The translations under genes and the position numbers were made by a program. From positions 1-55,868 of IMG/VR virus record IMGVR_UViG_3300036781_000517: a stretch of 55,868 nt of DNA; one strand, 5' to 3'. Position 1 is the stretch's first letter. Every line of letters begins with the position of its first letter. Shown here piece after piece: positions 23,118 to 55,868 of this stretch. The DNA comes from a virus. The notes below the pieces were generated by a model, which did not search any database, was not told where the DNA came from, and saw only the letters and a program-made list of their open reading frames with translations.

Positions 23118-23153
23118 ACGAGCGCCCGCTGCGTCGCCGCAGCGGGCGCTCGT
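23118..23153 (-). terminator. Strong hairpin after the capsid gene
   Basis: A perfect 15-bp stem (ACGAGCGCCCGCTGC with its complement) around a six-base loop, between the capsid stop and the next start. No U run follows on the minus strand, so it may be a partial terminator or an RNA-stabilising structure that raises capsid mRNA over downstream genes. Confidence 0.65.
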
Positions 23154-23227: not shown

Positions 23228-24553
23228 CTACGGGTGGACCAGGTAGCGGACCGGGTGCTGCCCGGAATCAATCAGGTTCCCGTCGAAGCGCTGGTAGAGC
23301 ATGAACCCGATCTGCAGCTTGTCCATGAACCGCTCGCCGAAGCGCACCATCTGAGCCTGGCGAACGCGGCGGATCTTGTACTTGCTCAGATCGCCGAAAG
23401 TCACCGTCTTCTGTCCGGTGGCGACGCTGGGCATGTCCTGGTTGATCACGTACGGGAAGCCGTCGACGGTGTCGGGGCGGCGGTTCTGAACGCCTTCGGC
23501 GGTGCCGCCCGCGATCCAGAGGGGCCGGCCGTTTCCGTCGGTCAGCTTCTTGAGCAGCTTGAGGGTGCTGTCGTTGTACATGAACTTCGCGTTGGGCCGG
23601 TAGGCCGGATCAACGCTGTGCTCCAGGTCGAGCAGTTCGTTGTACGCGATCGCCGAGGTGCTGGCGGCGATGACGCCGGAAGTGGCGGCGACCAGGAGGC
23701 CGGTCATGTCGTTCGTGCCGGTGCCGACGGTGGCCAGGTTGTTGACCCGACGGCCCAGTCGGGTGCGGGCCGCATCCGACAGGAAGGTCTCGGGATCGAA
23801 GGCGCTGTCCTGCAGGAGCTGAACGGGAACGAGGATGATCCCCGAGTCCTTCATGTAGGCGCGCAGGGTGATCACGCCGAAGCTGGGATCCTGCGTCTCC
23901 GTCGCAGCGGCGTTCTCCGCGAGGTTCTCGCCGCTGTTGGCGGTGTCGTTGAAGGTCGGCCAGGGAAGGTCGTTGCCCTGATCGGTGTCCACGAAGCTGG
24001 CGTTTTCCAGCATGCCGCCGTACGCCTTGAGGGCGATGTCCAGGGTGTATTGAAATCCCTGGGGCACGGTATAGGCGCCAGCCGAACCCGTCGAAGCGGA
24101 CAGGGCTCGCAGTTCGAGCTCCTTGGGATCGTTGGGGTTGGTGACGTACAGCGACGTGGACAGGAGCGAGCGTTGTTCCTGGGTGAGGCCATTGTCTCCG
24201 GCGGTCATCCACTGGCGATAGACGCCGCGGTATTCCCGGTCCTTGGCCTTGCGGTCTTCGTCGGTGGTGGTGGCGCCCCCTTCACGGGTGACGTCCTCCC
24301 GGCCGGCGGGGCGCGGGTCGGAGCGGATCTCGCTCATTTGCTTCTCGACGCCAAGCTGCTTCTCGAAGCGGCCGATCTCCGCCAGCATGGCGTCGCCGTC
24401 GGTGTGGCGCTTCTCGAACTCCTGCGTCTCCTCGGGGGTGAGGGAGCGTTTCTCGACGGACCGGGCCGCGGCGGCGGTCAGGATGGCGCCGGCGGCGTCG
24501 AGGGTCCGCTTGCGCTCTTCGATCTTGTCCTTGAGCATCTGTCGCAGTGACAT
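23228..24553 (-). CDS. Major capsid protein, HK97 fold
   Basis: A 441-residue HK97 gp5-like protein. The first 115 residues form the charged coiled-coil delta domain that acts as internal scaffold (MLKDKIEERKRTLDAAG). The mature part begins near residue 145 and shows the E-loop and P-domain features (ASTGSAGAYTVPQGF, DLPWPTFNDTAN, then FMYNDSTLKLLKKLTDGNG, IRRVRQAQMVRFGERF). The matching prohead protease lies just upstream and should remove the delta domain. A GAGAA site precedes the ATG. Confidence 0.93.
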   Translation of the reverse strand: MSLRQMLKDKIEERKRTLDAAGAILTAAAARSVEKRSLTPEETQEFEKRHTDGDAMLAEIGRFEKQLGVEKQMSEIRSDPRPAGREDVTREGGATTTDEDRKAKDREYRGVYRQWMTAGDNGLTQEQRSLLSTSLYVTNPNDPKELELRALSASTGSAGAYTVPQGFQYTLDIALKAYGGMLENASFVDTDQGNDLPWPTFNDTANSGENLAENAAATETQDPSFGVITLRAYMKDSGIILVPVQLLQDSAFDPETFLSDAARTRLGRRVNNLATVGTGTNDMTGLLVAATSGVIAASTSAIAYNELLDLEHSVDPAYRPNAKFMYNDSTLKLLKKLTDGNGRPLWIAGGTAEGVQNRRPDTVDGFPYVINQDMPSVATGQKTVTFGDLSKYKIRRVRQAQMVRFGERFMDKLQIGFMLYQRFDGNLIDSGQHPVRYLVHP

Positions 24554-24726: not shown

Positions 24727-24795
24727 CGCAGCCGGGAGGGATCGAACCTCCGCGCGGGGGTACAACCCCCTGCTCTACCGCTGAGCTACAGCCGC
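24727..24795 (-). tRNA. tRNA-like gene, anticodon probably UGU (Thr), contracted
   Basis: The minus strand shows an acceptor stem GCGGCTG paired with CGGCTGC (24795-24789 with 24734-24728), D arm GCTC...GAGC, and T arm GGAGG-TTCGATC-CCTCC. The anticodon region GGGGG-TTGTA-CCCCC is two to three bases short: it gives either a five-base loop, or a seven-base loop GUUGUAC with anticodon UGU and a four-pair stem. CCA is not encoded. It lies between the prohead-protease side of the operon and the capsid gene, in the same direction, so it would be cut from the late transcript. It may be functional or decayed. Confidence 0.6.
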
Positions 24796-25055: not shown

Positions 25056-26465
25056 TTAGTCCTCGTCTTCGTCCTCGTCGGCCGCCTCGGCTTCGGTGTC
25101 GAAGGGGCCGGCCAGGTCCTTGCCGTCGGAATCGACGACGTAGAACTTGCCGCCGCGACTGACGACGGACCGCTTTTCGGTCTTCGTTGCCGCCCCCTTG
25201 GCCCGGACCTCGGCCGCTTTGGGCAGCAACGCCCGCAGTTCCGCCGTGGACTGCTGCTTCTCGGCCATCGTCTGGATCAGCTTGAGGTGACGGAGGGTGG
25301 AATCGACGTCGCCGGCGGCGGGGACGTCCTCTTCGTCGACGGCGCCCAGCTCCTGGAGCACGACCTTCACGCGACGGGCCTTGGCGATGAGGTTGAGGAC
25401 CTGGTCGAGGTAGTCGTCGATCGCCTCCTGATCGCGCTCGCTCAAATCGCCGGTGATGCGCGAGGCGACGTCCATCACGTTTTGGCAGGAGTCGAACGCG
25501 CTCCGCAGGCTTTCGATTCCCCAGCGGCAGGTGTACACCAGGCTGTCGTCTTCAATCTCCATCGTGGCCCGCTTCTCGGTCCCGCGGTGTGCGCCTCTGC
25601 TGGCCGCGGTGTCCGGCAGGCGGGCGATCGCCTTTTCGATGCTGCGGACGTCCACGGTCGTGCCGTCGTAGGCCGGGTAGGGTGTCGGGCTGATGTGCCC
25701 GAGCATCATGCTGTTGAGCGTCCGGACCGGAACGCCGTCGGCGCCGCGCTCCCAGGTGTCATCCGGTTCGTCGAATCCAAACGACATGCCGGGGATGTTG
25801 CGGTGCTCGACGTCTCCGACGAGATCGCGGGCAGCGGTGGTGTCGGGGAGGGCTGCCTCGAAGGCCAGGCCCTTGGCGTCTTCGCGGAGCTGGAGCGTGC
25901 CGGCTGTCGTGCGGGCGAGGACCGGGCCGGTATGGTCGATGCACATCGTGATGTCATCGCCGCTGGCCAGGGCACGCTGGAACGCGCCGGGGGCGATCTT
26001 CTCGACGAACTCCTTGCCGCTCTTGGTCTTGAGGGGCTTGGAAGTCTTGTCGAACACGGCGGCATAACCGACGAGTTTTTTCTTTCCGTCTGCGGTGGTT
26101 TCGACGCGCACCTCTGAGCAATGGAGCGTCCGTTTTTCCATTTCGCGGGCAGGAGCGGAGCGGACTTCAAGCGTGCCCATGTGTCGCGAGCTCCCGGCGA
26201 ACTCCTCCCAGCTCTGGCGAAGCTCTTCTGCCTGTGCCGGGGTGGGATCCGCGGTAATGGTGATGGCCTCGGCCACCGCATAGGCATCCATCTGTTCGTC
26301 AATGACCAAGACTCTGACGCCAGGCAGCGCCGCCGCGACAGTGTCTCGGAGCGCCGCGAGCTGTTCGCGCGCGGCTCTTGCCCTCACCTTGAGGATCAGA
26401 AATTCACCAGGCTCGATCACGACGCCGGCGAGAGACCCGTCGGCGGGGAGTGCGATAACTTTCAT
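25056..26465 (-). CDS. Prohead protease (HK97 family) with extra N- and C-terminal parts
   Basis: A 469-residue protein. Residues 112-300 are a prohead protease of the U35/S78 type: LVGYAAVFDK at 131-140, the His region CIDHTG (His178) and the Ser region GMSFGF (Ser228). It cleaves capsid delta domain, portal or scaffold during head maturation. Residues 1-95 are an extra domain (PGEFLILKVRARAAREQ, then LPGVRVLVIDEQ), a pattern I know as a separate small protein in other phages. The final 150 residues are helical and charged, and end in Glu/Asp repeats. The C-terminus may serve as scaffold. Start overlaps the portal stop (ATGA). Confidence 0.88.
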   Translation of the reverse strand: MKVIALPADGSLAGVVIEPGEFLILKVRARAAREQLAALRDTVAAALPGVRVLVIDEQMDAYAVAEAITITADPTPAQAEELRQSWEEFAGSSRHMGTLEVRSAPAREMEKRTLHCSEVRVETTADGKKKLVGYAAVFDKTSKPLKTKSGKEFVEKIAPGAFQRALASGDDITMCIDHTGPVLARTTAGTLQLREDAKGLAFEAALPDTTAARDLVGDVEHRNIPGMSFGFDEPDDTWERGADGVPVRTLNSMMLGHISPTPYPAYDGTTVDVRSIEKAIARLPDTAASRGAHRGTEKRATMEIEDDSLVYTCRWGIESLRSAFDSCQNVMDVASRITGDLSERDQEAIDDYLDQVLNLIAKARRVKVVLQELGAVDEEDVPAAGDVDSTLRHLKLIQTMAEKQQSTAELRALLPKAAEVRAKGAATKTEKRSVVSRGGKFYVVDSDGKDLAGPFDTEAEAADEDEDED

Positions 26466-31559: not shown

Positions 31560-31580
31560 CAGAGAAAGGCAGGAGCGGTC

Positions 31581-32585
31581 ATGCTACTTTCCAAGATCAC
31601 TACGCGCCCGGAGCTCTACCAGAATCGCGCCGCAGCGTTCAGCGAATCCACCGTCGCCGGCATCGTGGCGGAGGGGCTGGACCTGGCCAAGTTCGATCCG
31701 ATCCCCGTGCTGGCCAGATCCGGCTGCGTCGGCGGCGACGGTCATTCCCGACTCGAAGCAATCCGCCGCCTCGCGAAGGCCGGCCGGCTGCCCAAGTCCT
31801 GGCAGCGCGGCCGGGACTTTGACGTCCCGACGAAGCCGGTCAGCGAAGCCGAAGCGCGACGCCTGGCATGGACGGCCAACCTCTCGCGGGACGGCTTCAC
31901 GCCCGGCGAGGAGGCGAAGGTTTACCAGTCGATGCTCGACGGCGGGCTGACGGCCAAGGAAGCCGGCGAGCTGGCCCACAAGTCCGAGGCCCACGTCAGC
32001 CGGATGCTCATCCTCAATACGCTTTGTCGTGACATCCGCGAGTGCGTGGGCGCCAGCCCGGCTGCCGGCGGGATCGACATCCTCACTGGGCAGGTCCTGG
32101 CCAACGGGTTCGCCCGCTACGGCGTCGAGCCCCAGCAGCAACAGCAGCTCTGGCATTGCGTGCTCAAGCACGCTCTGCTGAATTTCCAATCGGCCAAGCG
32201 GTTCATCGACCGCATCGGCTCACGGCTCGCGGAGAAGTCCTCCGACGGCATGCTCTTCGCCATGCCGGCCAACGCCGTGGCGGTCGTCGCCGAAGCCAAG
32301 GCCCGCGGGCAGGCCGCCCGCACCGCCAAGACGGGGCTGGCCCTTTTACTCAGCGCCCGCAAGCTCGGCGGACTCGACAGCCAACCCGAGCTGGCGATGT
32401 GGCTGGACGACAACGGCCAGACGGTCCTTGAGGACCTGTCGGCCCGCGTCACTGAGGACGCCGATGTCCTCGCTGACCTGGTGGCGCCGCCCAAGCAGTG
32501 GGCGGCACGGCCGGCATCACCGGCCGATGCACGGATCGCGCGTCAATACGACCCCCAAGCAACCCCGATGCTCATCGGAGCCTGA
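31581..32585 (+). CDS. ParB-like nuclease-domain protein
   Basis: A 334-residue protein with a ParB/Spo0J-like N-terminal domain: IPVLARSGCVGGDGHSRLEA (residues 44-63) holds the GDGHSR variant of the ParB CTP/DNA-binding box, followed by a helix-turn-helix around GGLTAKEAGELAHKSEAHVSRML. The C-terminal half is helical. A role in partition, transcription control or nicking is possible; the association with DUF932 and a radical-SAM gene is a phage theme, but the function is not established. Start has AGGAGCGG upstream. Confidence 0.82.
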   Translation: MLLSKITTRPELYQNRAAAFSESTVAGIVAEGLDLAKFDPIPVLARSGCVGGDGHSRLEAIRRLAKAGRLPKSWQRGRDFDVPTKPVSEAEARRLAWTANLSRDGFTPGEEAKVYQSMLDGGLTAKEAGELAHKSEAHVSRMLILNTLCRDIRECVGASPAAGGIDILTGQVLANGFARYGVEPQQQQQLWHCVLKHALLNFQSAKRFIDRIGSRLAEKSSDGMLFAMPANAVAVVAEAKARGQAARTAKTGLALLLSARKLGGLDSQPELAMWLDDNGQTVLEDLSARVTEDADVLADLVAPPKQWAARPASPADARIARQYDPQATPMLIGA

Positions 32586-33604: not shown

Positions 33605-34219
33605 TCATGCTGGCGATAGGGCCGATCGCTTCAGTGCGGCCCAGTAGTGGGTCATGTCGCCGCCGTGCCCGCAGTGGTATCCCTTCCAGGACTCGATCGC
33701 GTATCCGGCGGCTTTCACGAGCCGCCGGATCTTTTCTTTGGCGACGGCCATGTAGCAGCCGTAGAGGTCGTTGCCGAACTCCTGCACCAGCTCGCGGAGG
33801 TCGTGGGTCTGCCACGCGCCGCCCAGCTTCACCTTTTGCCGCAGCCCGTCGTTGACGACCAAGTGCATCGACTCGGGGAAGGCCCGCGGCGTTCCGAAGA
33901 AAGCGCCCAGGGCCGGGAACGGTGATCCGTAGGGGTCGCAGTCCAGGAAGTTGAACGACCGCTCCGCACAGCCGCCCGCCTCAAGCACTGTTTCGCAGGG
34001 CGACTGATAGACCGACCAGCTCGGGCGCTGGGCGGCGAGCGTCTCGGCCTTGTCCGGATCCACCTCGAATACGACCCCGCGGGTGAACCGGGAGTAGCAG
34101 GCAGCGAACACCTTGCCGGCGCCGCCATGAGTTTCCAGCACGGTGGGCTCGCGGCAGGAGGCCAGGGCCTCAAGCCGCAGTGCCACCTTTTGCTTGAACG
34201 TTGAGTTGTCCTTTTGCAT
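33605..34219 (-). CDS. TRM1-like SAM-dependent methyltransferase
   Basis: A 204-residue protein with a Rossmann methyltransferase fold: motif I VLETHGGAG (residues 27-35), the acidic strand end VVFEVD (49-54) and motif IV DPYGSP at 95-100. DPxGSP is characteristic of TRM1-type tRNA guanine methyltransferases and not of DNA adenine methylases (DPPY). Substrate could be tRNA or phage nucleic acid; this cannot be read. It overlaps the 3' end of the ParB-domain gene by 50 bases, suggesting a joint function. Confidence 0.75.
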   Translation of the reverse strand: MQKDNSTFKQKVALRLEALASCREPTVLETHGGAGKVFAACYSRFTRGVVFEVDPDKAETLAAQRPSWSVYQSPCETVLEAGGCAERSFNFLDCDPYGSPFPALGAFFGTPRAFPESMHLVVNDGLRQKVKLGGAWQTHDLRELVQEFGNDLYGCYMAVAKEKIRRLVKAAGYAIESWKGYHCGHGGDMTHYWAALKRSALSPA

Positions 34220-34826
34220 ACGACTGGCAGATCTCCACCAGGGCCTCTCCCCGGTTCATGTTGCCGGTCAATACCAGCGCCTTCTCGACGTCGGCCAGGT
34301 CCTTGACGGAGATGACCATCTTCACCTTGGGGTCTCCGCGCTTGCAGATCTCGCTGCGAGCGTCTCCGCCGGCTTTTGGCGGAGTGCCTTGCGCGCCCAG
34401 GCCTTCGACCAGATCGGCGGCCAAGCCACGCAGCGACTCTTGCCCGAAGGTGACGTCGCCCAGCAGCGTCCGCAGATTCGCCTCGTCAGGGACGGCGAGG
34501 CCGGCCAGCGGATCCAGCGTGAGCAGGATCTTCTTTTCCGCCTCCTCCGACCAGGACCCGATCAGCACCGGGATGGGGGTTGACGGATCCACCGAGGCAC
34601 GCCTGGCGTGACCGTCGACCAGTCGCTTGGTCCGTTCGTTCCAGAGACAAGCTCCGGCCCATCCGATTTCCGGATCGTCGAGGACGTCTTTCAGGGCGGC
34701 CATCTGATTGTCCGGATGCCTCCGCCAGTTCAGCGGGTTCTCATCCAGCGACCCTGCTTCGATCCATTCAAGCCGCAAGGGCGGCTGTCCCGGTGGTCGC
34801 GCAGACGGCTTCTTATCTTTGGCCAT
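34170..34826 (-). CDS. ParB-domain protein (methylase-associated type)
   Basis: A 218-residue protein with a ParB-like N-terminal domain of the kind often fused to DNA methylases: NPLNWRRHPDNQMAALKDVL (residues 30-49), then GWAGACLWNERTKRLVDGHA. Here the methylase domain is missing, but a separate methyltransferase gene overlaps its 3' end. The C-terminal region has a VKMVISVKDLADVEKAL segment. The ATG at 34826 is the first after the upstream intergenic region. Confidence 0.8.
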   Translation of the reverse strand: MAKDKKPSARPPGQPPLRLEWIEAGSLDENPLNWRRHPDNQMAALKDVLDDPEIGWAGACLWNERTKRLVDGHARRASVDPSTPIPVLIGSWSEEAEKKILLTLDPLAGLAVPDEANLRTLLGDVTFGQESLRGLAADLVEGLGAQGTPPKAGGDARSEICKRGDPKVKMVISVKDLADVEKALVLTGNMNRGEALVEICQSYAKGQLNVQAKGGTAA

Positions 34827-34993
34827 GGGTCGAGGTCTCCGGAGGCCCGCAGCTTGCCGGCGTAGGGGGGGGCTAGTCAAAACCCGTGAAAATTCACGCA
34901 CGACCGATACGGTCTGGGAGGGGTGTGTCCCCCAGAAATTTAGACCCCCCTGCCCCCTGCCGTCGTTCCGCCGGCGGATTTCATTCTGAAACG

Positions 34994-47142: not shown

Positions 47143-47265
47143 GAGAGGGAGCCATGTCTCGTTTCGACCGGCGGAGCCGGGCCAACGCGCCGCCGATTAT
47201 TTCCGACCCACCAATTTACCGGCGACCGCTGCGCGCCTTTTGGGCCAGCGCGGGAGACCCGAGGG

Positions 47266-47595
47266 GTGATCAGACTGGTGGACAAGCCGACGTTGGCGTC
47301 GCATCTCGGGGTGACGGTGCGGACGCTAAACAAGGAGATCCAACGCCACGAGTTGCCCAAGCCGTTTCGGCTGGGCCGCAAGGCGTACTGGCAGGAGGCC
47401 ACGATCGAGGCGCACTTCGCCGACCTGGAGCGTCGCGGCCAGCGCCCAAAAAGGAGAGCGGAGAACACGGACGAACTGAAGGCCAGGAATGGCCCGGCCC
47501 TTTGTTCGCCGGGTTGTCCATGCGTCGACGAGGGATCCCGAACGTCTCCATCTACAAGCCCAAGAGCCGGTCCACCGCCCGCCACAAATGGCTAG
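47266..47595 (+). CDS. Excisionase-like HTH protein
   Basis: A 109-residue protein starting with GTG (47266, GAGGG upstream; another GTG at 47278 is possible). The first 60 residues form a MerR/AlpA-like winged helix: DKPTLASHLGVTVRTLNKEI, then QRHELPKPFRLGRKAYWQEA. Small proteins of this fold next to an integrase direct excision or act as transcription factors. The C-terminal 40 residues overlap the integrase start by 76 bases and look like shadow coding. Confidence 0.8.
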   Translation: MIRLVDKPTLASHLGVTVRTLNKEIQRHELPKPFRLGRKAYWQEATIEAHFADLERRGQRPKRRAENTDELKARNGPALCSPGCPCVDEGSRTSPSTSPRAGPPPATNG

Positions 47596-49199
47596 TGGCG
47601 TACCTGGCCAACCCCGACGACCTGCACCGCACCGTCGAAAGCGTAAGCACCGATTACGAGGTGACGCGCCAGTACGCCTGCGAGCTGTCGCGCAAGCTCG
47701 ACCGCCGGCGGCTGGGCCTCATCACCGCCGATGACGACAAACTCGCCGCCGCCGCCGCGATCCCTCTGGCCGATCACATCACCGACTTTGCCGACTGGCT
47801 CATTGCCCGGGGCGTGACGGAGAAACAATCCGGCGAGGTAAAGAGCCGGCTGACCAAGCTCGCTGAATGGTGCGAGTTCCATCGCCTCGGCGAGCTGTCC
47901 GCCAGCAAGGTGCAATCCGGAGTGAACGACTGGCGAGACGAAAACGGCCGGGCGGCAGAGACCTGCAACAAGTACCTCAAAGCCGCCAAGCAGTTCTCGA
48001 AATGGGCGTCGTCTAAGGCCGAACGGAAGATCACGGAGCACGTGTTTTCCGACCTGACCAGCTACAACGTCGAGGCCGATCGTCGGCACGTCCGCCGATC
48101 GCTGACCGGCGATGAATTGGCGGCGCTCCTCGCGGCCACGGAGCGAGGCGAAGTGTGGGTCAGGGACGGGCGGAGGATGTCGGGCCCGGACCGCCGCATC
48201 CTGTACACGCTTGCGGCCTACACCGGCCTGCGTCGCAGCGAGCTGGCCAGCCTGACCCCCGAGAGCTTCGACTTGGGCGAGCGTACTCCGACCGTCACCG
48301 TCGACGCCGCTCACAGCAAGCACCGGCGCACGGACGTCCTCTTCGTTCGCGCCGACGTCGCCGCCCTGCTCAGGCCCTGGCTCGACACCAAGGCGGCCGG
48401 CAAGCGCATCTTCGCCGTCCCCGACAAAGCGTTCCTGATGCTCTACGCCGACATGGCCGCCGCGGGTGTAGCCATCAGCACCACCAGCGGCATTGCCGAC
48501 TTCCACAGTCTGCGGCACACGTTCGGCACGATCCTCGCCGCCAGCGGGGCGCCCATCACAGTGCTCCGCGAGCTGATGCGGCACACCGACATCCGCCTCA
48601 CGATGCGTTACGTGCATCCGACGCTGCACGACCAGGTCAAAGCCCTCGACGGCCTGCCAGGGCTCGCCCAGCCGCGGCAACAGCAGCAGCTACGCGCGAC
48701 GGGCACCTACGGAGGCGCGGCCCCGGATAGCGCTGCGCCGGGCGCTGAAAACGAAACAGGCCCGCTTAAAAAGCGGGCCGGCTTCAACCGCAAGGGCGTG
48801 TCCAACGCTGCACTTACCGAATGTTCCCGGCAGGTCTCGAACCTGCAACCTTCGGCTTCGGAGGCCGACGCCACAACACCCCCCCCATCCGACGCGCAAG
48901 TACCAGCCGCGGCGCGACTTTGCAATCATGAAAACCCAATAGGCGCGTCAGCGCGATCGGGTCCCTCAGGGACGCCTGGGGACGAGCAGGGACGACCCGA
49001 GAACGCAGAGCGCTGCGCCACGCGCTTACCAGGGAGCGACGCACCGCCGCCAACTTCGGTCTACGGAACCGACGCCGCGATCACGCCTGCCGCGCCTGCC
49101 GCCCCATTGGATCTGGACGAAATTCGGGCCGCCTACGAGCAGCTCGGCCGCCTCCTCGGCAAGGCCCCGCCACCCCCCGTCACGGAGGACGAAGATTGA
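47520..49199 (+). CDS. int: Tyrosine integrase with attP-containing C-terminal extension
   Basis: A 559-residue tyrosine recombinase. It has an N-terminal arm-binding region, a SAM-like core-binding domain (about residues 85-175) and a catalytic domain with Arg238 (TGLRRSE), His329-x-x-Arg332 (HSLRHT), His355 and Tyr364 (RYVHP). Catalytic domain ends near residue 385. The remaining 170 residues are atypical: low complexity, then the translation of a tRNA 3' half (residues 435-450, with SRQVSNLQPSASEADA). ATG 47520 is chosen because the N-terminal domain begins there; the open frame further upstream is a shadow of the excisionase-like gene. It integrates phage DNA into a host tRNA-Arg gene. 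Confidence 0.92.
   Translation: MRRRGIPNVSIYKPKSRSTARHKWLVAYLANPDDLHRTVESVSTDYEVTRQYACELSRKLDRRRLGLITADDDKLAAAAAIPLADHITDFADWLIARGVTEKQSGEVKSRLTKLAEWCEFHRLGELSASKVQSGVNDWRDENGRAAETCNKYLKAAKQFSKWASSKAERKITEHVFSDLTSYNVEADRRHVRRSLTGDELAALLAATERGEVWVRDGRRMSGPDRRILYTLAAYTGLRRSELASLTPESFDLGERTPTVTVDAAHSKHRRTDVLFVRADVAALLRPWLDTKAAGKRIFAVPDKAFLMLYADMAAAGVAISTTSGIADFHSLRHTFGTILAASGAPITVLRELMRHTDIRLTMRYVHPTLHDQVKALDGLPGLAQPRQQQQLRATGTYGGAAPDSAAPGAENETGPLKKRAGFNRKGVSNAALTECSRQVSNLQPSASEADATTPPPSDAQVPAAARLCNHENPIGASARSGPSGTPGDEQGRPENAERCATRLPGSDAPPPTSVYGTDAAITPAAPAAPLDLDEIRAAYEQLGRLLGKAPPPPVTEDED
48759..48779. terminator. Hairpin beside attP
   Basis: GGCCCGCTT-aaa-AAGCGGGCC, a perfect nine-bp stem. On the minus strand it follows the tRNA-like 3' end by about 40 bases, and has U residues in the loop and in the region after (TGTTTCGTTTTC), like a tRNA terminator carried with the attachment site. 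On the plus strand it would lie inside the integrase frame. Confidence 0.5.
48822..48868 (-). other. attP: Probable attP core: 3' half of tRNA-Arg(CCG)
   Basis: On the minus strand: anticodon arm UCGGC-CUCCGAA-GCCGA (anticodon CCG, arginine), variable loop, T arm GCAGG-UUCGAGA-CCUGC, acceptor strand CGGGAAC and discriminator A. The D arm and the 5' acceptor strand are missing; upstream is unrelated sequence with a C run. A tRNA 3' half next to a tyrosine integrase is the classical attP, which restores the host tRNA upon integration. It lies inside the integrase frame. Confidence 0.85.
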
Positions 49200-50431
49200 G
49201 CGATCACACGCCAATTCCGCGTACGCACTGCGGCTCCAAATTCCTCCCCGACCAGCCGACCTACTCGATCCAACGGCGCATCGCGGAAATGTTCGGCGAC
49301 CTTGGAGCCCACCTGCTGCATCAGCTCGACTGGTACCTCACCAACCTCGGCGAGATCCGCGACGGGACCGAGCCTGACGAGCGGCGGTGGATTCTGGCGA
49401 CCTACGAGGACTGGCACGACGAGTTTTCCTGGTACCACGAGGGCACGATCCGGGTTGCCTTCAAGAAGCTCGAAGCACTAGGGATAGTCGTTGGCGTCCA
49501 GGTCTTCGGGGCGCGGTCCGCCAAGTGGTACACGATCGATTACGCCGAGCTCGACGCGGCCATCGCCGCTCAACCCGAATCAAAGCGCACGCGGGGCGTG
49601 ATGCGCCGCCTGCTAGATTTGCGCAGCCGGCCTTGTCCGCCCCCTGAAGACGATGATCGTAAGTGCGCGCGGGCGCGCGCTTTACACACCCGCGGGCGCG
49701 CGCTGCGCGCGCCCGCGGGTGCGCAAAACGCGCAGGCGGTCGGCGACCGGGTGCGCATTTCTAACGCCTCCGGGCGCGCGCAAATAGCAGCTCCGCCTGT
49801 TCAAAATGCGCGCCCGCTTAATAAGGAATTGGATAAGGGAGAATTGGATAACGTCGTCGTCGACGACGGGTCGGGTGGGTCCACGCCAGGCCCCACCCCT
49901 ACCGATGGTGCCCCCGCCCCGCCGCTCGCCCCGCCGGAACTAATCGCCGCGCTCAACGCCGCAGGCGTCTCAGACGCCGCACAGATGGCGGCGATGTACC
50001 CCCGCGCAACGGTGAGCCAGGTGCGCAAGCTCCACGCCGACGCCGAACGCCTGCGACGCAACGGCAAGCTGCGCGGCACGATGACCGGCGTGGTGATCAG
50101 CGGGCTCAAAAAGGGTTGGCAGGCCGACCGACCGCCTGAACCACCCGCCCCGGCAGCGGCAAAAGTGCGACCTTCCGGGCCTTTGCCTTCCGACACCAAC
50201 ATCGCCCTGGCAAAACTTCACCCTGACGACTTCGACGCGCTGGCCGCCGCCGCGTTGGCCAGCATCCCGGAGAATTTTCGCGCGACCTTTGCCCGCACCG
50301 GCCCTAGCGGCCCGGCACTCCGCGGAGTGATGCACACGCTTTTGGATCGCGGCTGGCGACGCGAGTCGTCGACTTCGCCCCTCGTCTCGCCGTCGGCCGA
50401 CCCCGAAGGAGGTGCCCCATGTCCGCAATGA
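49196..50431 (+). CDS. Replication initiator-like protein
   Basis: A 411-residue protein starting with TTG that overlaps the integrase stop (TTGA). The first 140 residues resemble the winged-helix domain of phage replication initiators (LGAHLLHQLDWYLTNLGEIR, TIRVAFKKLEALGIVVGVQV, then KWYTIDY). Residues about 150-220 are low-complexity Arg/Ala-rich and coincide with GC palindromes and iterons in the DNA. The C-terminal half contains a helical domain (LIAALNAAGVSDAAQMAAMY, then LRGTMTGVVISGLKKGW), as in helicase-loader regions. An analogue of lambda O is likely. No helicase or primase gene is recognised, so host replication proteins would be recruited. Confidence 0.72.
   Translation: MSDHTPIPRTHCGSKFLPDQPTYSIQRRIAEMFGDLGAHLLHQLDWYLTNLGEIRDGTEPDERRWILATYEDWHDEFSWYHEGTIRVAFKKLEALGIVVGVQVFGARSAKWYTIDYAELDAAIAAQPESKRTRGVMRRLLDLRSRPCPPPEDDDRKCARARALHTRGRALRAPAGAQNAQAVGDRVRISNASGRAQIAAPPVQNARPLNKELDKGELDNVVVDDGSGGSTPGPTPTDGAPAPPLAPPELIAALNAAGVSDAAQMAAMYPRATVSQVRKLHADAERLRRNGKLRGTMTGVVISGLKKGWQADRPPEPPAPAAAKVRPSGPLPSDTNIALAKLHPDDFDALAAAALASIPENFRATFARTGPSGPALRGVMHTLLDRGWRRESSTSPLVSPSADPEGGAPCPQ
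49664..49852 (+). other. Candidate replication origin inside the initiator gene
   Basis: A perfect 35-bp palindrome at 49687-49721 (17-bp arms CACCCGCGGGCGCGCGC around a single T) is flanked by further copies of GGGCGCGCGC, at 49671-49680, 49694-49703 and 49772-49781, with inverted copies at 49705-49714 and partly at 49808-49815. It is followed by an AT-richer stretch with the direct repeat GAATTGGATAA (49827-49852). Iterons plus AT-rich region inside an initiator gene is the plan of lambdoid origins. Confidence 0.55.
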
Positions 50432-53359: not shown

Positions 53360-55510
53360 ATGGCGTCGACGAAATCAAAGACTTCCAAGCCCACGTCCGC
53401 CGACTCAGCCCGCAAAGCGCTAAATGAAATCCGCAACCTCCAATGGCAGGCGCAGGAGATCGATTCGATTGCTCGGCGAGGCGTCGACAAGGCACGCAAG
53501 GCGCTTGCGGAAGCCGAAGCGCATCAAGCCTTCATCGCCGGGCAACTCTCGAAGTTACCGAATGCGACGCTCGCTCAGGCAAGGAAGGTCCTCGACGCCA
53601 AGGCCACCGACGTGGAGCTGCTCAAGCTTGTCCGCGCCTGCAAGCAGGCGCCGTGGGCGAAGCTTCAACGCGATGGCGCCAGTGACGATCAGATCACCAC
53701 GATTCTGAAAGTCGGCTGGCCTCAATACACGTACAGCGACCGGCAGACCCGATGCGAGGCCGAAGGGCCGCGCGTCTGGATCCGGAACACGAGCCACGCG
53801 CCAACCTTCTCGGGCAAGGCACTGATCGCCGAGGTCCGCCGGGTGATGGAGATCCCTCAGCCCAAGGCCACCCCCGCACCCAAGCCGCCGGCGAAGAAGA
53901 AACCCGATGGCGGCAAGAAGGGGCCGACGGGGCCGGCACTCGCCGAGGCGAAAGCCCCGGCGTCACCGGCTCCGAAGGCGAAGAGCAAGGCCGCCAAGAA
54001 GCCAGCGGCGAAGGTCGGCGCCGCCGCGGCCGCCGATGCGCATAGGGCGGTCGTTGCCAAGGGTGGCACGCTCGAAGAGGCACTCGACGCCGGCATGAAG
54101 CTGCTGCTGGTCCGGCCGGGCCAAACCTACACGCCCGACCAGCTCGGCCTCGCCGACGAGGACCTGGAGGCGTCTATGCCACCGGTCGAGCTGGGCGGAC
54201 TCGCTGGCAACCATCCTGACGATGAGCGCGGCGGCAACATTGGCCGGCCGCTGACCGCCGACGGCATAAAGTGGGCAGTGATCGACGCGTCGCAGCAGAC
54301 GGGGTCGATCACCTACACGCTCCAGCCTTTGCACACCCCAGACAAACCGCCGGCCGGGGTGCAGATCGAGACCTGGCAAAAGCGCCGCAGCCGCCACGCG
54401 AACAAGCCTCCGGAGGATGTGCCTCTCGCCGGCGTCAACGTTTTCGATCGCTCGTCCCTCACGGACTGGATCCTCGGACACGACGATCGGCGGATTTACT
54501 GCAAAGTGAGCAAAGCCGCCGCCGGCGTGATCGGAGATCCCGCGGCATGGGCGGACACGTTCGACGCGAACGTCAACGAGCACGGCGTGTACGTCCGTGG
54601 TATCCGCACGATCAACGTGCCGGGGATCGCGAAGAGCCACAAGCGCACCTGGGCGAAGATCAGAGTCGCCAAGGACGCGGACGGTTACCGCGCGGGCCAC
54701 GACTTTGGACTGAACTACGCCGGCAGTTCCGGCGATCCTTCGATCAGCAGCCGAGCCTTTGCCAGTGAAGCCGAGGCTGTCCGATCCGTCGCCGAAAGCG
54801 CACTCCAGTGGTTCGCTGGAAAGCGATCGCACGGCGCAAAAGCGGAGAAGGCCGCCGCGATCGCTGCAGCCGCCGCCGTGCAGGACTTTCTTGATCACAA
54901 CCCCGCCGCGCAACCAGCGGCCAAGAAATCCGGCGCCGCCGTTGTCGATCGCCTCATCAGCGAATCCGAGGCGAGGGTGAAGAAGGAAGGCACGACGGCG
55001 TGGGCCAAGGCCGAAGGCTTTGGAGACGTCTCGACCGTCCGCGCCAAGAAGATCGCAAGCCTGCCGGCGGACAAACGCCACCTGATGAAGGACCAGCGGG
55101 TGAACGACGCCGGAGAATTCACCGAATTCGACGGGCATCTGATCAGGTGCGACGCCGGCAGGATTGCGCTTTGCGTGGTACAGGACGGGTCCGGGAGATG
55201 GCACAGTGGATTCAAGCTGCACTGGGAAAGCAGTCGGCTTACGGAGACATATCGCGCTCCGACCGTCGAAGACGGTTGCGGTTCGCGCGAGCTGGCGTTG
55301 AAGGTTTCGTCCGCGTGGGCAGAGGAGGAAATCCTCAAGACCAATGCGGGCGGATCGGGCCACCTCGCCACACTGGACGAGCAGGACGTCCATGCGATGC
55401 GTGAGGCGCTGAAGCGAGCGCGGTCCAAGGGCTTCAAAGACGACACCCAACCGGCCAAGAAACTCAACGGCGCCGGCGACAGCACGCTCGCGGCCGTGGC
55501 GTTCGCGTGA
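53360..55510 (+). CDS. Large unknown protein with histone-H1-like linker
   Basis: A 716-residue protein starting at the ATG 53360. Order: N-terminal coiled coil (residues 15-75), a small basic domain (about 85-170), a Lys/Ala/Pro-rich linker (about 175-235, such as KPPAKKKPDGGKKGPTGPA) like eukaryotic H1 tails, a large globular region (about 240-510), an Ala-rich helix, and a C-terminal domain with FDGHLIRCDAGRIALCVVQD. The largest early protein and unrecognised, it may be a DNA-binding protein for replication or host takeover. Confidence 0.75.
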   Translation: MASTKSKTSKPTSADSARKALNEIRNLQWQAQEIDSIARRGVDKARKALAEAEAHQAFIAGQLSKLPNATLAQARKVLDAKATDVELLKLVRACKQAPWAKLQRDGASDDQITTILKVGWPQYTYSDRQTRCEAEGPRVWIRNTSHAPTFSGKALIAEVRRVMEIPQPKATPAPKPPAKKKPDGGKKGPTGPALAEAKAPASPAPKAKSKAAKKPAAKVGAAAAADAHRAVVAKGGTLEEALDAGMKLLLVRPGQTYTPDQLGLADEDLEASMPPVELGGLAGNHPDDERGGNIGRPLTADGIKWAVIDASQQTGSITYTLQPLHTPDKPPAGVQIETWQKRRSRHANKPPEDVPLAGVNVFDRSSLTDWILGHDDRRIYCKVSKAAAGVIGDPAAWADTFDANVNEHGVYVRGIRTINVPGIAKSHKRTWAKIRVAKDADGYRAGHDFGLNYAGSSGDPSISSRAFASEAEAVRSVAESALQWFAGKRSHGAKAEKAAAIAAAAAVQDFLDHNPAAQPAAKKSGAAVVDRLISESEARVKKEGTTAWAKAEGFGDVSTVRAKKIASLPADKRHLMKDQRVNDAGEFTEFDGHLIRCDAGRIALCVVQDGSGRWHSGFKLHWESSRLTETYRAPTVEDGCGSRELALKVSSAWAEEEILKTNAGGSGHLATLDEQDVHAMREALKRARSKGFKDDTQPAKKLNGAGDSTLAAVAFA

Positions 55511-55520
55511 AGGGGGATCC

Positions 55521-55781
55521 ATGTGGACGTTCGAGCTCGGGCAATCCATCAACTGGCCACCGGCGCCCATGGCACTCGCGCAGGTCGTCGAGCTGCGACG
55601 CTCGCGGGTGCGCGTCCTGTACCGCTGCCGGACGGGCCGCGTTCGCCAGCCGCTGGTACCAGCAAGGGACCTGGCGGCGCTTCAAGAGATCGAGCCGCCC
55701 CTCCCGCTTCCGAACGCCATGGACCGCGCGGCCATGCGCGGGCGCAAGACGTTCGTTGCGAGGGGGGGGGGGCAGGACTGA
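55521..55781 (+). CDS. Small beta protein ending in a G tract
   Basis: An 86-residue protein (FELGQSINWPPAPMALAQVV, RRSRVRVLYRCRTGRVRQPL), a short beta-barrel-like core. The 3' end carries the G11 tract (55762-55772) followed by cag gac tga. In the left copy of the terminal repeat the tract has 12 G, and then this frame would run on into the 310-561 gene. An AAGGGGGATCC site precedes the ATG. Confidence 0.72.
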   Translation: MWTFELGQSINWPPAPMALAQVVELRRSRVRVLYRCRTGRVRQPLVPARDLAALQEIEPPLPLPNAMDRAAMRGRKTFVARGGGQD

Positions 55782-55868
55782 TGCCGTATTGGAAGGAGCA
55801 AATCGATGAAGACGTGCGAGATGTGCGGTTGCACGGACAACCGGGCGTGCGACGGCGGGTGTTTCTGG
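55758..55868. repeat. Right copy of terminal direct repeat
   Basis: These 111 bases equal 1-112 except for one G fewer in the homopolymer. The contig therefore closes on itself. The gene at 50-313 begins again here at 55805 and is cut by the end of the window. Confidence 0.95.
55762..55772 (+). repeat. Poly-G tract, 11 G
   Basis: Right-hand counterpart of the 12-G tract at 5-16. The difference of one base within one assembly directly shows length heterogeneity, biological or technical. Confidence 0.9.

Follow-up and report, generated by a model that had tools for sequence, protein, structure and literature searches.

The viral record analysed here (the window, all 55,868 bp of it, with 64% GC and 36% AT) very probably contains, within the phage's own initiator gene, an origin of theta replication at positions 49668-49852. 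This reading is well supported by the anatomy of the sequence, by the homology of the encoded protein, and by a layout and period that are conserved in relatives. The predicted origin is composed of six 23-bp iterons followed by an AT-rich block (Table 1). The homology of the initiator, together with the iterons of the same period and the AT-rich repeats that follow them in relatives, points to the layout of lambda gene O and SPP1 gene 38. The window appears to be a new, unusually GC-rich example of this in-gene iteron origin layout already known from lambda and SPP1, and it provides a concrete, predicted pair of origin and initiator for a GC-rich phage known from sequence alone. It also suggests that the spacing and place of iterons survive while their sequence shifts to high GC.

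Table 1. Coordinates of the putative origin, its repeats and the initiator gene in the window
Feature	Position	Strand	Basis
Replication initiator gene (411 aa, TTG start)	49196..50431	+	PHROG 6493 and 428; tblastn matches to phage initiators of the DnaD-like and O-like kinds
N-terminal winged-helix DNA-binding domain (about aa 14-125)	49235..49570	+	alignments; structure model
Iteron 1, CGCGGGCGCGCGCTTTACACACC	49668..49690	+	23-bp register
Perfect palindrome of 35 bp (core of iteron 2, flanked on each side by a CCCGCGGG junction)	49687..49721	.	inverted-repeat search
Iteron 2, CGCGGGCGCGCGCTGCGCGCGCC; holds the palindrome axis (49704)	49691..49713	+	23-bp register
Iteron 3, CGCGGGTGCGCAAAACGCGCAGG; A-centred; encodes AQNA, which aligns with the conserved QN of relatives	49714..49736	+	23-bp register, alignment
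Iteron 4, ACCGGGTGCGCATTTCTAACGCC	49746..49768	+	23-bp register
Iteron 5, TCCGGGCGCGCGCAAATAGCAGC	49769..49791	+	23-bp register
Iteron 6, TCCGCCTGTTCAAAATGCGCGCC; retains the family core CTGTTCAAAATG	49792..49814	+	motif from relatives matches at 49797
Putative DNA-unwinding element, AT-rich	49815..49852	+	direct repeats GAATTGGATAA at 49826 and 49841
Helical C-terminal region (aa 241-385)	49916..50350	+	structure model, moderate confidence; helices after aa 245

Six 23-bp iterons within the initiator gene

The array consists of six quasi-palindromic units, three in tandem from 49668 and three from 49746, with a 32-bp step between the starts of the third and fourth. Exact copies of GGGCGCGC were found on the plus strand at 49671, 49694 and 49772 and on the minus strand at 49707 and 49808, two of them within the palindrome, and this cluster holds five of the six copies in the genome. 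The variant GGGTGCGC gave further copies at 49717 and 49749. An earlier note on this DNA had counted at least four more copies of the core around the palindrome; the cluster is real, but only three exact extra copies of GGGCGCGC lie outside the palindrome, to which GGGTGCGC adds two. Of the 93 GCGCGC/CGCGCG words in the record, 15 fall inside the 200 bp from 49651, and the 13-bp repeat CGCGGGCGCGCGC of the array has no other occurrence in the record.

The autocorrelation of the array peaked at lag 23 (z 5.1), and this value was equalled by 0 of 2000 Markov sequences. Among synonymous recodings drawn with the codons of the genome, 0 of 2000 reached the value at lag 23 and 17 of 2000 at some lag, compared to 5 and 26 of 2000, respectively, when the linker's own codons were used. 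In the register 0/23/46/78/101/124, the mean pairwise identity was 13.1 of 23 positions compared to 6.2 (sd 0.6) across 55,707 start positions, a six-unit score approximately 11 standard deviations above the genome mean, which is a descriptive figure because the register was picked after viewing the sequence. Only five positions reached this score, and the genome maximum, at 49670, falls within the array.

Successive units fall in different reading frames, 23 not being divisible by three, and the 23-bp period is therefore no protein repeat. The repeats encode an Arg/Ala-rich stretch (RKCARARALHTRGRALRAPAGAQNAQ...), in agreement with its earlier description as low-complexity Arg/Ala, and this stretch is predicted to be a disordered tether whose sequence is largely dictated by the DNA. 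A literature search on CAGAGACTAC gave no phage origin among the matches listed.

The perfect palindrome and the AT-rich block

The palindrome that was first noticed in this region is exact, reading CACCCGCGGGCGCGCGC-T-GCGCGCGCCCGCGGGTG with 17-bp arms around a single central T, and is the longest short-loop inverted repeat in all 55,868 bp of the record. Local Markov models of order 1, 2 and 3 produced arms of at least 17 bp in 0, 1 and 3 of 3000 sequences, respectively, and when the protein was recoded synonymously 2000 times, the longest arm obtained was 13. Tandem palindromic units give dyads both at the unit centres and at the junctions, so the iteron register accounts for the palindrome: the functional unit is best taken to be the 23-bp iteron, with the perfect palindrome arising as a by-product of palindromic units set in tandem. 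The 21-bp core of the palindrome was absent from the viral collection searched.

The AT-richer block with two repeats was likewise found as described, the repeats being the two copies of GAATTGGATAA. The 38 bp from 49814 are 63% AT compared to 36% in the whole record, with 0.09% of 38-bp stretches equally AT-rich, and the AT maximum of the initiator gene begins at 49817. The first GAATTGGATAA repeat lies about 12 bp past the last iteron, compared to a median gap of 10 in relatives. By eye, the reverse complement of GAATTGGATAA, TTATCCAATTC, has TTATCCA in common with TTATNCACA, which might allow a DnaA-box reading.

The initiator protein

The product of the gene matched the PHROG profiles 6493 (DnaD-like helicase loader, E 3.7e-12) and 428 (replication initiation protein, E 2.4e-8), compared to E 0.18 only for PHROG 678 ('replication initiation O-like'). 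These profiles, and the replication genes that adjoin its relatives, bear out the earlier description of the gene as initiator-like. In Pfam and NCBIfam, the lambda O family model gave no match to the window protein at E up to 1, and neither the DnaD/DnaB_2 (PF07261) nor the Phg_2220_C (PF09524) C-terminal domain was found in it; one or the other was found in the relatives L001, L002 and L039 but not in the window protein. It is therefore grouped with the winged-helix initiators, outside the DnaD and Phg_2220_C C-terminal families.

The first approximately 125 residues were about 22-36% identical to phage and prophage initiators. Five columns of the winged-helix alignment (42 rows) were invariant, and the winged helix was modelled confidently, with a pLDDT of about 90-97 across much of aa 30-130. 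The linker (aa 167-240) was predicted to be disordered (pLDDT <50), and the iteron and AT-rich DNA codes for about aa 158-219, mostly within the predicted disordered segment. A 'QN' pair that is conserved in the protein alignment (Q177) derives from the CAAAAY at an iteron's centre. No known domain was found in the C-terminal region (aa 241-385) in Pfam or NCBIfam, and this region is expected to be the helicase or loader contact. Among solved structures, the window protein had no direct sequence match and one weak regulator match by profile. A fold search of the PDB returned generic winged-helix regulators only, with E above 0.02, and a fold search against viral models returned some replication initiators with low TM-scores.

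Iterons and AT-rich repeats in relatives

Two scans, together with annotated phages and plasmids, yielded 169 loci with the domain, and the 110 non-redundant relatives compared come from phages and prophages of several phyla. Most of the annotated relatives examined adjoin genes for a DnaB helicase, for a helicase loader or for replication protein P; in the window, the genes searched included none recognisable as a helicase or loader gene. Direct repeats at about 22-24 bp were visible in 7 of the 9 annotated genes examined, L038 having two repeat copies 45 bp apart and L002 no direct repeat. In the linker DNA of the 110 non-redundant relatives, the best autocorrelation lag was 22 or 23 in 44, and a significant period was found in 59 (33 of them at 22-23 bp), compared to 4 for the adjacent winged-helix DNA.

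A palindromic A-centred motif, CnGnTCAAAATGAnCAG, which was trained on the relatives only from a seed chosen by eye, had a density of 10.4 per kb across the 200 bp that follow the winged helix, compared to 0.29 per kb elsewhere (approximately 35-fold), with sites spaced at 22 (44), 23 (44) and 24 bp (9). Only two of the six window iterons matched it, namely iteron 6 (CTGTTCAAAATGCGCGC, at 49797, ranked 18th in the record) and iteron 3 (GTGCGCAAAACGCGCAG, at 49719, ranked 34th), and 17 sites elsewhere in the record outscored the better of these. Because the best CnGnTCAAAATGAnCAG sites lie elsewhere, the match supports homology of position and not a unique genome-wide call. Judged from their letters, the window iterons are best read as GC-rich versions of the family's iterons that have diverged from the consensus. 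No close relative was found in a single-protein scan of viral contigs or in a DNA-level phage search, and none near enough for DNA alignment among the viral contigs and phages searched. The initiator also had no match in 21 records, many of them fragments, that share the terminase at 27-45% identity.

AT-rich AGAGANTAC repeats were spotted by eye in the DnaD-type relative L003 and the Phg_2220_C-type relative L039. The motif AGAGANTA(C/A) was present after the winged helix in the initiator genes of 77 of the 110 relatives, often repeated at 12 or 11 bp, and had a background density of 0.10 per kb. Within the motif, the Glu codons were GAG 114 times and GAA 9 times, compared to 712 and 1136 times, respectively, in the remainder of the genes (Fisher P about 1e-34), a count that is partly built in, as AGAGANTA spells GAG in its commonest frame. 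The frame-breaking 11-bp spacings and the low background are apparently cleaner signs of selection on the AGAGANTAC repeat at the DNA level. Of the 61 linkers in which both parts were scored, 54 had the iterons before the repeats, and the median gap was 10 bp. DnaA-box-like copies of TTATCCACA, noted by eye, flank the iterons after the winged-helix match in two viral contigs (L040 and L042).

The earlier note had named conservation of the repeats in relatives as a check. The 22-23-bp period and the layout were indeed conserved; the letters have diverged, and none of the family's AGAGANTAC repeats is present in the window. We tentatively propose, as something a little less likely than not, that the linker of phage initiators carries a two-part cassette, with A-centred palindromic iterons at 22-23 bp and then, approximately 10 bp on, AGAGANTAC repeats at 11-12 bp, and that its conservation as DNA extends over phages of several bacterial phyla and over different C-terminal domains. 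The window phage would then be a derivative in which the letters were rewritten and the period and layout kept, and AGAGANTAC would act as a signal for strand opening that is widespread and apparently undescribed. This element is perhaps the more interesting by-product of the analysis, and a conserved repeat of this kind beside iterons could turn the prediction of origins in temperate phages into a routine task.

Comparison with known origins and proposed mechanism

The lambda origin lies in gene O and has four 18-bp iterons and 38 bp of AT-rich DNA (PMC3349717), and some lambdoid relatives have six iterons with A-stretches of three or four inside them (PMC7466680). The window is like lambda in having iterons and an adjoining AT-rich tract within the initiator gene. 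Unlike in lambda, the period is 23 bp, the iterons are GC-rich, the protein has no match to the lambda O family, and no P-like loader was recognised downstream in the window genes searched. In SPP1, oriL lies in gene 38 and gp38 binds direct repeats inside its own gene, an AT-rich region being the unwinding element and a helicase loader and a DnaB-type helicase taking part; a second origin, oriR, is found about 13 kb away (PMC6316719). Repeats within the initiator's own gene and an AT-rich region are common to SPP1 and the window. In contrast, SPP1 has oriR besides oriL, whereas the CGCGGGCGCGCGC repeat of the window is found nowhere else in the record.

A putative lambda-like origin has been placed in the Phg_2220_C gene of the Francisella phage KIRK (PMC7924643). 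With the DnaD-like and Phg_2220_C initiators of an Enterobacter plasmid-prophage (L039), the Bacillus phage BhaS-171 (L034) and the Hafnia phage yong2 (L001), the window shares a homologous winged helix and the order of winged helix, 22-23-bp iterons, AT-rich repeats and C-terminal region. It differs from them in that most of its units have GCGC arms and not those of the family, in that it has GAATTGGATAA repeats where the family has AGAGANTAC, and in that its C-terminal region is without a known domain. The proposal of a lambda O-like origin in the initiator gene is thus supported by comparison and refined in two respects: the unit is the 23-bp iteron, and the nearest kin are of the DnaD-like/Phg_2220_C type and not lambda O itself.

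The binding, melting and loading steps proposed here are modelled on those of lambda O and SPP1 gp38. Dimers of the winged-helix domain of the initiator would bind the six mostly A/T-centred 23-bp iterons, and the 23-bp spacing, about two helical turns, would place these near one face of the DNA in a nucleoprotein complex. This complex may strain and open the AT-rich block 3' of the array, and the C-terminal region could recruit the replicative helicase of the host or the phage. The cumulative GC skew, which had been suggested as a check, had its raw minimum at the record start and its detrended minimum at 54,967, about 5 kb off, with the extremes outside 49664-49852. Since the skew follows switches in gene direction, it is uninformative on the origin and speaks neither for nor against it.

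Alternative explanations

Arrays of iterons are also bound by winged-helix proteins such as TubR, which is among the weak fold matches of the window protein (TM-score to the target about 0.55), and genes for ParB-like proteins lie at 31563-32585 and 34170-34901. The array might on these grounds be an autoregulatory operator or a partition (centromere-like) site of the winged-helix protein and not an origin. This is unlikely, since the array lies inside the gene and 3' of the DNA-binding domain, no sigma-70-type promoter was found, the relatives adjoin helicase and loader genes, and the array is followed by an AT-rich block like that of known origins.

Two other explanations are still less probable. 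The palindrome could be an RNA or DNA hairpin with a role of its own that overlaps the gene (terminator, attenuator, cruciform, packaging or recombination signal), and the segment does fold more stably than shuffled sequences as DNA (z -3.4, 0 of 200 as stable) and moderately so as RNA (z -2.5). However, the iteron register explains the dyad, and what the relatives retain is the iterons and the period. A terminator at the palindrome was rejected, as no T-run follows it and no terminator was called there. The genome is 64% GC, and some 23-bp signal persisted when the linker's own codons were reshuffled, as might be seen if the GC repeats had no function and either arose through drift or slippage within a linker of low-complexity Arg/Ala or belonged to a mobile palindromic (REP-like) element. 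We regard this as very improbable, given that CGCGGGCGCGCGC is confined to the array and the palindrome core was not found in the viral collection, that the six-unit register is exceptional genome-wide, and that iterons of the same period occupy the same place in relatives.

Genome setting

The window appears to be the genome of a GC-rich temperate tailed phage, whose minus strand encodes terminase, portal, capsid and tape-measure proteins. Its termini (1-112 and 55757-55868) have an exact overlap of 107 bp, and the genome is therefore circular or circularly permuted; the poly-G run beside the overlap is 12 in length at one end and 11 at the other, probably because the assembly of a circular genome broke at this homopolymer. 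A tyrosine integrase gene (47154-49199) immediately precedes the initiator gene.

Within the 3' end of the integrase ORF, a tRNA-like sequence was found on the minus strand at 48822-48880 (Rfam tRNA, 30.9 bits). Its anticodon-stem and T-arm are present, the D-arm is mostly gone, and the anticodon was read by eye as CCG (Arg); it is likely the attP core, corresponding to the 3' portion of a tRNA gene in the host. A tRNA-Thr (tgt) gene lies at 24727-24795 on the minus strand, between the capsid gene (23228-24553) and the ORF at 25056-26465, both also on the minus strand. The second-longest hairpin of the record (23118-23153, 16-bp arms and a 4-base loop) lies approximately 75 bp beyond the 3' end of the capsid gene and is possibly a terminator or processing site.
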